From contig JAQWYM010000061.1 of the NCBI GenBank assembly GCA_029253965.1, forward strand, positions 1 to 37,281: 37,281 nt of DNA, written 5' to 3'. Position 1 is the stretch's first letter, and the number at the start of each line of letters is the position of its first letter. The stretch is from Gammaproteobacteria bacterium (GTDB lineage Bacteria; Pseudomonadota; Gammaproteobacteria; UBA4575). Of the stretch, positions 17,091-21,861 are shown piece after piece. A program made the translations under genes and the position numbers. The notes below the pieces were generated by a model, which worked only from the letters and a program-made list of their open reading frames with translations, ran no database searches and was not told the DNA's origin.

Positions 17091-18503
17091 CTAGGGTGCC
17101 ACTCCGTCACTGTACTCATACATCTGAAGTTCTTGAATCTTCCGCGTCAGTGTATTGCGTCCCCAGCCCAATAGTTTGGCCGCTTGTTGTCGCTTACCGC
17201 CTGATTTCCTCATTGCTACTTCAATCAAGGTGCTTTCAAACTGCGCAACCGCGTCACTTAAAATATCTATCTCGCCACCATCGAGCTTTTGCTCAGCCCA
17301 TAATGTGAGTTGCTTTTTCCAGTCGCCATTAGTCTCAATTTTAATCTTATTGTCACGCAGATCATTCGGCAGGTCTTCCATGTGAATGGATTTACCCGAT
17401 GCCATCACTGTCAACCAACGTGCCACGTTCTCTAACTGACGTACATTACCGGTCCAGTCTAGCTTACTCAAATGTAGCGTTACTTCAGGCTCTAAGAGTT
17501 TACCTTCAACACTCAGTTCACTGGCTGCTGACTGTAGAAAATGTTTTAACAAGACAGGGATATCCTCACGGCGCTCACGCAATGCAGGTACTTGAATACG
17601 AATAACATTAAGCCGATGCATTAAATCTTCACGGAACTGGCCCTTCTCTACTAAGGTCGCTAAGTCCTGATGAGTCGCGGCAATAATACGTGCATCAACA
17701 CTAATAGACTCATGGCCACCGACTCGATAGAACTGACCTTCAGAGAGTACACGCAGCAGACGCGTTTGTAGATCAGCTGGCATATCACCAATTTCATCTA
17801 AAAATAAAGTCCCTCCATCTGCCTGTTCAAAACGGCCACGACGTAGTGTTTGTGCGCCAGTAAATGCACCTTTCTCATGCCCGAATAATTCGGATTCAAG
17901 TAGATCTTTTGGTATCGCCGCCATGTTCAAGGCGATAAATGATTTTTTCTTTCGCACTGAATGTGTATGTAAAGCCTTGGCTACTAATTCTTTACCGGTA
18001 CCTGTTTCACCATTTATGAGGACTGTAATACTAGAAAGGGAAAGCCTACCAATGGCACGAAAGACTTCTTGCATCGCCTGTGATTCACCGATGATTTCAG
18101 GTGTTTCCGCGATCACAGTATTTTCACTTAGACCCTCACTATCATCCACGCAGGCACGTCTAGAGAGTTCAACCACTTCATTCACATCAAAGGGTTTAGC
18201 TAAATATTCAAAGGCACCATTTTGATAAGCAGTCACTGCATTATCCAAGTCGGAGTGAGCTGTCATAACAATAATTGGCAGCTCTGGATTTTGTGTTTGC
18301 ACTTTTTTTAAAAAATCCAAGCCATCCATACCCGGCATTCGAATATCGGTAATGATAAGTTTTGGAACACTCACAGATAATGCCTGCATGGCACTTTCTG
18401 CCTCCTCAAAAGTAGTCACCTCAAAATCTGCTTTCGTTAGCGCACGATCAAGAACCCAACGAATTGACTGATCATCGTCGATAACCCACACATCATTTTT
18501 CAT
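17091..18503 (-). CDS. glnG: Nitrogen regulator NtrC (sigma-54 activator)
   Basis: This 470-residue response regulator has three domains. The receiver (about 1-120) has phospho-acceptor D53 in TDIRMPGMDG. The AAA+ domain (about 138-370) has the Walker A GETGTGK at 165-171, the sigma-54 contact loop GAFTGA at 212-217 and GGTLFLDEIGDM. A Fis-type helix-turn-helix lies at the C-terminus (KRQQAAKLLGWGRNTLTRKI). When phosphorylated by NtrB it activates nitrogen-starvation promoters. It lies 21 bases after glnL on the same strand; NtrC-type sites occur upstream of both glnL and glnA in this window. Confidence 0.97.
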   Translation of the reverse strand: MKNDVWVIDDDQSIRWVLDRALTKADFEVTTFEEAESAMQALSVSVPKLIITDIRMPGMDGLDFLKKVQTQNPELPIIVMTAHSDLDNAVTAYQNGAFEYLAKPFDVNEVVELSRRACVDDSEGLSENTVIAETPEIIGESQAMQEVFRAIGRLSLSSITVLINGETGTGKELVAKALHTHSVRKKKSFIALNMAAIPKDLLESELFGHEKGAFTGAQTLRRGRFEQADGGTLFLDEIGDMPADLQTRLLRVLSEGQFYRVGGHESISVDARIIAATHQDLATLVEKGQFREDLMHRLNVIRIQVPALRERREDIPVLLKHFLQSAASELSVEGKLLEPEVTLHLSKLDWTGNVRQLENVARWLTVMASGKSIHMEDLPNDLRDNKIKIETNGDWKKQLTLWAEQKLDGGEIDILSDAVAQFESTLIEVAMRKSGGKRQQAAKLLGWGRNTLTRKIQELQMYEYSDGVAP

Positions 18504-21300: not shown

Positions 21301-21386
21301 CGAGTCACTCCTAAATAAATTAAATTCAAATCTACAGGCCATGGCTGCGATACGCACTCCACCCTGCTTTATTCCTCTATACTTAA

Positions 21387-21401
21387 GCACAATACGTGCC
21401 A
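21387..21401 (-). promoter_or_regulatory. Sigma-54 (-24/-12) promoter of glnA
   Basis: The minus strand reads TGGCACGTATTGTGC: TGGCACG is a perfect -24 element, GG and GC are separated by 10 bases, and only one T of TTGC differs. The predicted start near 21376 leaves a leader of about 75 bases before the glnA ATG. Two NtrC sites lie about 95 and 125 bases upstream, the usual enhancer distance. Confidence 0.8.
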
Positions 21402-21463
21402 TAGCAGAAGGTAGCCTACTAGAGCCATTTTTGGAAGCCTCAGAGCTAAAATGCTCCGCTTGA

Positions 21464-21510
21464 CGCACCAATAAAGTGCAGCCACACTCAAGCTGCACTT
21501 TATTGGTGCG
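21464..21510. promoter_or_regulatory. Paired NtrC enhancer sites forming a 19-bp inverted repeat
   Basis: CGCACCAATAAAGTGCAGC (21464-21482) and its exact complement (21492-21510) are separated by 9 bases. Each arm contains an NtrC dyad of the form GCAC, 7 bases, GTGC. Centres at 21472 and 21502 are 30 bases apart, about three helical turns, so two NtrC dimers would sit on the same face of DNA. In E. coli glnA the two strong sites are also about three turns apart. Position relative to the -24/-12 element indicates the glnA enhancer. Confidence 0.85.
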
Positions 21511-21572
21511 GTTTCCAGCTCAATCACTCATCCTACTATGCTCAATAGCAAATCAATACCTTGTACAGTACT

Positions 21573-21590
21573 TGTAATGGGTGTCTCACA
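21573..21590 (+). promoter_or_regulatory. GacA-box-like dyad upstream of the putative small RNA
   Basis: TGTAAT, 6 bases, CTCACA matches the GacA/UvrY upstream activating sequence TGTAAG-N6-CTTACA at 10 of 12 defined positions with exact spacing. It lies about 80-90 bases before the proposed start of the GGA-rich RNA, roughly where Gac boxes occur before rsmY/rsmZ genes. The AT-rich stretch 21601-21660 between them should hold the core promoter, but I cannot choose one -10 box. Tentative. Confidence 0.45.
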
Positions 21591-21664
21591 AAAAACAGCA
21601 TGATTATTTCGCATTAAGTAAAAAATACCTTAAACTAATCTTGTGTTATTAATATTTATTGCAA

Positions 21665-21830
21665 TCACTGTCACAAGTGCATGTACAGGACCAGGAAGGC
21701 CCTCTAAATAACACATCAGGAAGCGTCTCCCCATGGATTGGGGCTGTTTCGACAAGGATGTCGAATAACAGGAACCATTGAACGCTTCAGCGCCCTCGAC
21801 AATGACAAATATCAGGCGAAGCTCAGAAAA
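21665..21830 (+). ncRNA. Putative CsrA/RsmA-sequestering small RNA (CsrB/RsmY/RsmZ type)
   Basis: Within 86 bases there are six GGA motifs, at 21688, 21694, 21719, 21735, 21756 and 21771 (first base). Two lie in hairpin loops: CCCCA-TGGAT-TGGGG (21729-21743, perfect 5-bp stem) and TTCGACA-AGGA-TGTCGAA (21748-21765, perfect 7-bp stem). The second contains ACAAGGATGT, the best CsrA-binding sequence known from in-vitro selection. Other motifs (ACAGGA, CAGGAAGC) resemble RsmY repeats. A GacA-box-like dyad lies upstream. Ends are estimated: 5' end from the AT-rich promoter region, 3' end from a bulged stem at 21784-21822. No T-run terminator is visible, and the glyQ promoter begins at 21832. Confidence 0.55.
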
Positions 21831-21831
21831 G

Positions 21832-21861
21832 TTCACACCTAGGCGGTAGATAGCTTACAAT
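21832..21861 (+). promoter_or_regulatory. Candidate sigma-70 promoter of glyQ
   Basis: TTCACA (21832-21837) and TACAAT (21856-21861) each match consensus at 5/6 and are 18 bases apart. Transcription would begin near 21868, leaving a leader of about 22 bases before the GTG at 21890. This separates glyQS expression from the GGA-rich RNA upstream. Confidence 0.5.

Follow-up and report, generated by a model that had tools for sequence, protein, structure and literature searches.

The stretch of DNA analysed here (the window) is a 37,281-nucleotide contig, C39, from the 1.47-Mb draft genome, 83% complete, of a gammaproteobacterium. The genes glnA, ntrB and ntrC lie on its minus strand and glyQ-glyS on its plus strand, and the gap between glnA and glyQ holds a cluster of GGA trinucleotides, described in a preliminary account as a small RNA of the CsrB/RsmY type. 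The features that bear on this proposal, in window coordinates, are as follows.

17091-18503, minus strand: ntrC (TIGR01818, 696 bits, above cut-off)
21386-21402, minus strand: sigma-54 promoter of glnA, 11 of 13 positions with the GG/GC core; relatives have a similar site
21464-21480 and 21494-21510, no strand given: two NtrC-type sites (10 and 11 of 13 positions matched) within a long inverted repeat
21551-21563, plus strand: exact match to the IHF consensus, AATCAATACCTTG, found by pattern scan
21642-21772, plus strand: structured core of a putative CsrA-sequestering RNA, the same architecture emerging from independent folds of this sequence and of its same-genus counterpart
21642-21650, plus strand: 5' arm of the closing stem, pairing with 21707-21715 in the folds of both sequences from the genus
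21687-21703, plus strand: hairpin with AGGAA (the second GGA) in its loop, folded in the window and in the same-genus genome, with a compensatory CG to UA pair between them
21729-21743, plus strand: hairpin CCCCA-TGGAT-TGGGG, first half of a 3' module, with double-sided changes at five of five pairs across the family
21744-21771, plus strand: hairpin CTGT-TTCGACA-AGGA-TGTCGAA-(TA)-ACAG, second half of the 3' module, kept in 12 genomes
21832-21861, plus strand: separate sigma-70 promoter of glyQ itself, TTCACA-N18-TACAAT, also kept in the same-genus genome
21890-22789, plus strand: glyQ, used as the syntenic anchor

The inverted repeat at 21464-21510, GCACCAATAAAGTGCAG...CTGCACTTTATTGGTGC, is built from the two NtrC-type sites. 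It also caused Rfam microRNA matches at 21459-21513, which in a bacterium are chance hits.

Recounting places the six GGA starts at 21688, 21694, 21719, 21735, 21756 and 21771, in agreement with the six within 86 nt (21688-21773) of the preliminary description. The cluster is the densest in the window, where no other 92-nt segment on either strand reaches six, and dinucleotide shuffles of the intergenic region give P = 0.001 for such a density. Two of the GGAs do lie, as had been claimed, in the loops of perfect hairpins, one with a 5-bp stem and one with a 7-bp stem, and only 0.05% of shuffles (about 1 in 2000) hold two GGA hairpins with stems of at least 5 bp. The loop of the second reads ACAAGGATGT, which is indeed the optimal CsrA site. 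A third GGA (AGGAA, 21693-21697) is also looped in a hairpin, the stem of which is stronger in the same-genus genome. Taken alone, the fold of the window sequence is unremarkable against shuffles (z = -1.51). The sequence GTGTTATTA (21644-21652) was considered as a -10 box and dropped, because it forms the 5' arm of the long-range stem in both sequences from the genus.

Comparisons were made across 19 genomes of the same GTDB family, drawn from the window's own genus (g1) and from the genera g2, g3, g4, g5 and g6, with glyQ located in 17 of the 19. In the third g1 genome, G002, which is 77% complete, neither glyQ nor the RNA was matched. The same-genus genome used for comparison, G001, has at its locus (L113) a GGA region syntenic with that of the window. 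Across GTCTCCCCATGGATTGGGGCTGT.TCGACAAGGATGTCGA a single position differs between the two, while the flanks of this conserved stretch diverge, with many gaps, up to the glyQ promoter and gene. The architecture is common to both: a closing stem, two hairpins within it, one of them presenting AGGAA, and then two GGA hairpins. The G001 fold is better than chance (z = -3.16 against shuffles), and 34 pairs are common to the two folds, out of 38 in the window and 44 in G001. Five of the shared pairs differ in sequence, and all five still pair, two of them through double-sided changes. The G001 sequence is interrupted by 14 Ns immediately 3' of the last hairpin, at the point where the RNA would be expected to end or to have its terminator.

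Beyond the genus, arrays of 8-17 GGAs occupy the same place upstream of glyQ in nine genomes of four other genera (four genomes of g2, three of the five in g3, and g4 and g5). In these full arrays many GGAs sit in hairpin loops, with up to eight such hairpins with stems of at least 4 bp per 250 nt, and in g2 the array is closed before glyQ by a clear T-run terminator, GCAAGC..GCTTGCCTTTTTT. Common to g1 and to every full array is the 3' module, in which two GGA hairpins stand side by side. Taken over 12 genomes, pairing holds in 84.4% of the cells for its 16 pairs, and eight pairs show changes on both sides, including three of the seven inner pairs of the 21744-21771 hairpin. Covariation in the module is 0.292; shuffles that leave relatedness in place give 0.162, with none of 500 reaching the observed value, and slid controls do not exceed 0.147. 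The stems singled out in the preliminary description are conserved in relatives, with double-sided changes in both GGA hairpins.

Two covariance models were searched, a full one (R1) and one built from g2-g5 only, without the window's genus (R2). R2 matches the window at 21718-21773 (29.7 bits, 7e-6) and G001 at 1e-7; because a model made without g1 still finds the window, membership of the window's RNA in the family is not circular. R1 identifies a single strong copy in each of 12 of the 19 family genomes, with no second strong copy in the window's own genome; no such copy turned up in 271 sampled genomes of the class that lie outside the family or in 80 glyQ loci from other gammaproteobacteria. 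In a tree of GlyQ the family is a supported clade of two branches (g1+g3+g5 and g2+g4+g6). Since the RNA is found in both branches, it is most simply ancestral to the family, with loss in g6 and in genome G017 and decay in genome G009.

Existing Rfam models do not detect this RNA. Neither the window nor any of 13 related loci gave a match at gathering score to any family, CsrB, CsrC, RsmX, RsmY and PrrB_RsmZ included. RsmY was the best relevant match to the window, at 11.6 bits against a cut-off of 57, and four full-array relatives gave no Csr-type match even at E up to 10. A lack of recognisable likeness to CsrB had been remarked on at the outset. The window's own genome does encode CsrA, as a single canonical protein of 61 residues, and a CsrA match was obtained in 15 of the 19 family genomes.

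That the region specifies a CsrB/RsmY-type RNA titrating CsrA, as originally proposed, is strongly supported: it is syntenic, it covaries, it is conserved where its flanks diverge, and csrA is present. We regard this CsrA-sponge reading as highly likely to be right. Positions 21642-21772 would be transcribed on the plus strand into a small non-coding RNA, which would sequester CsrA dimers through GGAs in at least three hairpin loops and unpaired AGGA linkers and so relieve the action of CsrA on its mRNA targets. It would be the small g1 version of a vertically inherited family RNA located between glnA-ntrBC and glyQS. The whole appears to be a family-restricted CsrB-like RNA, new to Rfam and apparently sigma-54-driven in the relatives.

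The last point comes from the upstream regions of the full arrays. All nine have a plus-strand sigma-54 -24/-12 site that keeps the GG/GC core, agrees with the consensus at 11-13 of 13 positions and lies just upstream of the array, or of a small ORF that precedes the array. Shuffles score 11 in 0-2% of cases per locus, and the eight loci without a full array have no such site within 720 bases upstream of glyQ. When the nine upstream regions are aligned, an invariant TCAnTnnGTTA block, near the IHF consensus, appears some tens of bases ahead of the -24 element, and a block TTTGTCA(A/C)CAt..GcCA lies further upstream in an enhancer-like position. The gene rpoN is present in 18 of the 19 family genomes, the window's own included. 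In relatives with larger genomes, the RNA has 8-17 GGAs, and its transcription would probably rely on a sigma-54 promoter assisted by IHF and an enhancer-binding activator, GacA being absent from the lineage. In g1 the sigma-54 promoter would have been lost and the RNA made from another promoter. On this reading the input of the family RNA would have been rewired from Gac to sigma-54 and the RNA itself later reduced in g1. To this explanation as a whole, a CsrA-sponge RNA in g1 with a sigma-54 input in relatives that lack GacA and with the promoter lost in g1, we assign a probability of roughly 0.84. Transcription, CsrA binding, sigma-54 dependence and physiological role we infer from what can be read in the genomes: position, structure, covariation, synteny, the presence of csrA and rpoN, the lack of a GacA orthologue, and the sigma-54 motifs of the relatives.

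At locus L114, TTGTCAGCATACGCCAACAA, located 576 bases upstream of glyQ, forms an imperfect 20-bp dyad in an enhancer-like position before the sigma-54 promoter of the array. It is a candidate operator of an enhancer-binding protein, and half-sites TTTGTCA(A/C)CAt in g2-g4 are related to it. In a phylogenetic profile of enhancer-binding proteins, no group among the matches listed fitted exactly.

The preliminary description had placed the RNA beside a nitrogen enhancer, a remark that leads in a fitting direction: the relatives show a sigma-54 promoter for the RNA, though none is recognisable in g1. A more specific version of the model has NtrC drive the relatives' promoter from the enhancer shared with glnA, which would make the RNA a nitrogen-starvation CsrA sponge; this would refine the explanation given above rather than exclude it. 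Every locus scanned has NtrC-type sites in the interval from glnA to the array, where they might serve the array as well as the divergent glnA promoter, and in the window ntrC adjoins glnA. The sites, however, are nearer to glnA than to the array, the TTTGTCA(A/C)CAt..GcCA block upstream of the array promoter is unlike an NtrC site, and the larger genomes encode many enhancer-binding proteins, so we treat NtrC as a possible but somewhat unlikely activator.

For the window's own RNA the promoter is less easily read. The best plus-strand sigma-54 candidate scores 8 of 13 in the window and 7 of 13 in G001, neither recognisable as a site, and a stretch near 21596-21614 in the window that might be a decayed site is too degenerate to be counted as one. 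The IHF-like block of the relatives may survive in part as the IHF match at 21551-21563. The RNA has no clear sigma-70 promoter or intrinsic terminator on the plus strand, the missing T-run having been pointed out from the start. As to a stand-alone transcript, a g2 array has both a sigma-54 promoter and a T-run terminator, and the window has neither in recognisable form.

These observations could mean that in g1 the RNA is a dying relic, an ancestral CsrA sponge deprived of its sigma-54 promoter and no longer made. The GGA count, down to 5-6 in g1, would fit, as would the state of G009, whose array is decaying without the sigma-54 promoter, and of G017, which lost the RNA. Yet the 3' module hardly differs between the two g1 genomes while adjoining sequence is divergent, changes at shared pairs preserve pairing, and csrA is kept with a canonical sequence. 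The strong conservation of the hairpins in g1 argues that the RNA is still in use, and we judge a relic unlikely. With so few GGAs, g1 could still be on a path of decay like that taken by G009, G017 and g6.

The GGA region might instead act within the glyQS mRNA, as a 5' leader or cis-regulatory element, perhaps bound by CsrA, rather than as a separate small RNA. It is always immediately upstream of glyQ, and in g1 no terminator intervenes, but the sigma-70 promoter of glyQ, kept in G001, lies between RNA and gene, and the g2 array is closed by a strong T-run terminator before glyQ is reached. Moreover, 8-17 GGAs are far above the number usual in mRNA leaders, which commonly carry one or two CsrA sites, and other glyQ loci do without the RNA. 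We find a leader very improbable.

Control by Gac/BarA, the other half of the preliminary proposal, fared worst. The claimed GacA box, TGTAATGGGTGTCTCACA at 21573-21590 on the plus strand, is present with 10 of 12 matches, but the window yields one such match where 1.75 are expected by chance, and the dyad is not conserved in G001. A search for gacA/uvrY with the UvrY/SirA/GacA equivalog model, which passes its cut-off in 14 of 36 other genomes of the class searched and in E. coli, returned no protein at 1e-60 in the 19 family genomes, complete single-contig ones as well as the 83%-complete draft of the window among them. The nearest UvrY-like protein is NarL-like, with about 34% identity to UvrY. 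The box is best taken as a chance match, and a Gac/BarA-controlled CsrB/RsmY-type RNA, for which the weak RsmY alignment of 11.6 bits might also be cited, is scarcely credible here.

The small ORF that precedes some of the arrays encodes 42 aa, is conserved and has a good ribosome-binding site (e.g. MSVTTDVFTTVYVVWIAASMAALAWAYRHTVKDKLCGDKKHS). It is confined to g2 and g4, where the sigma-54 promoter stands before it and the GGA array after it, at loci L120 (genome G011, starting 551 bases upstream of glyQ), L121, L122, L125 and L126. It belongs to no Pfam family and was not found in 50 other genomes searched; its product is probably a small membrane protein.

A broader proposal is that the Csr input has been rewired in this family, away from BarA/UvrY and onto a sigma-54 promoter helped by IHF and by an enhancer-binding activator, beside the NtrC-controlled glnA-ntrBC genes. 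CsrA activity would thereby follow a signal acting through sigma-54, nitrogen status for example, and in two genera the conserved 42-aa membrane protein would be encoded on that transcript as well, making it a dual-function sponge. We rate the chances of this proposal as even.

In well-studied gammaproteobacteria, CsrB-type RNAs are read as the output of Gac/BarA-UvrY. CrcZ and CrcY of Pseudomonas, driven by CbrB and sigma-54, sequester Hfq/Crc through A-rich motifs. They resemble the family RNA, as proposed here, in being protein-sponge RNAs whose sigma-54 promoter answers to a nutrient-type activator, but differ in target and motif, the family RNA presumably acting on CsrA through GGA loops. 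GlmY of enterobacteria, dependent on sigma-54, GlrR and IHF, likewise is a small RNA with a sigma-54 promoter and IHF between enhancer and promoter, but it is a RapZ decoy with no GGA array. The GacA-controlled RsmY, RsmX and RsmZ of Pseudomonas are similar to the window's version in length (about 110-140 nt) and in having about six GGAs; the RsmY score far below cut-off, the lack of a GacA box beyond chance and the lack of a GacA found set them apart. CsrB and CsrC (Rfam RF00018 and RF00084; BarA-UvrY) share with the family RNA many looped GGAs, a putatively stand-alone intergenic RNA with terminator (in g2) and an IHF-like site upstream, IHF sites upstream of csrB/rsmB being reported in enterobacteria (PMC5109040). 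They differ in that the family RNA goes unmatched by Rfam models, has a sigma-54 promoter in relatives, and occurs in a family where no UvrY was found. Pf1, Pf2 and Pf3 of Pseudoalteromonas are reported as lineage-specific Csr RNAs with 9-25 GGAs, recognised by their GGA arrays, and Pf2 and Pf3 as binding CsrA (PMC11882849). The RNA described here is likewise lineage-specific and known by its GGA array, with CsrA binding predicted from sequence; Pf1, Pf2 and Pf3 are differently located and have upstream sequences of the CsrB-family type (PMC11882849). A literature search limited to open-access papers found no report in which a CsrB-type RNA was transcribed under sigma-54 or NtrC.

If the proposed reading is correct, a lineage may possess CsrA and a CsrB-like RNA without GacA, transcribed from a sigma-54-type promoter, and the sponge would be a component that can be plugged into another global input. 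Because Rfam misses the RNA, such lineages would be wrongly recorded as possessing CsrA but no sponge. A single family in which the RNA is variously present, shrunken, decayed and lost also offers a natural series for the number of GGA sites that a sponge needs. Genus g3 by itself contains a natural loss series: G017 (L115) has lost the RNA, and G009 (L116) keeps a decayed array without the sigma-54 promoter.
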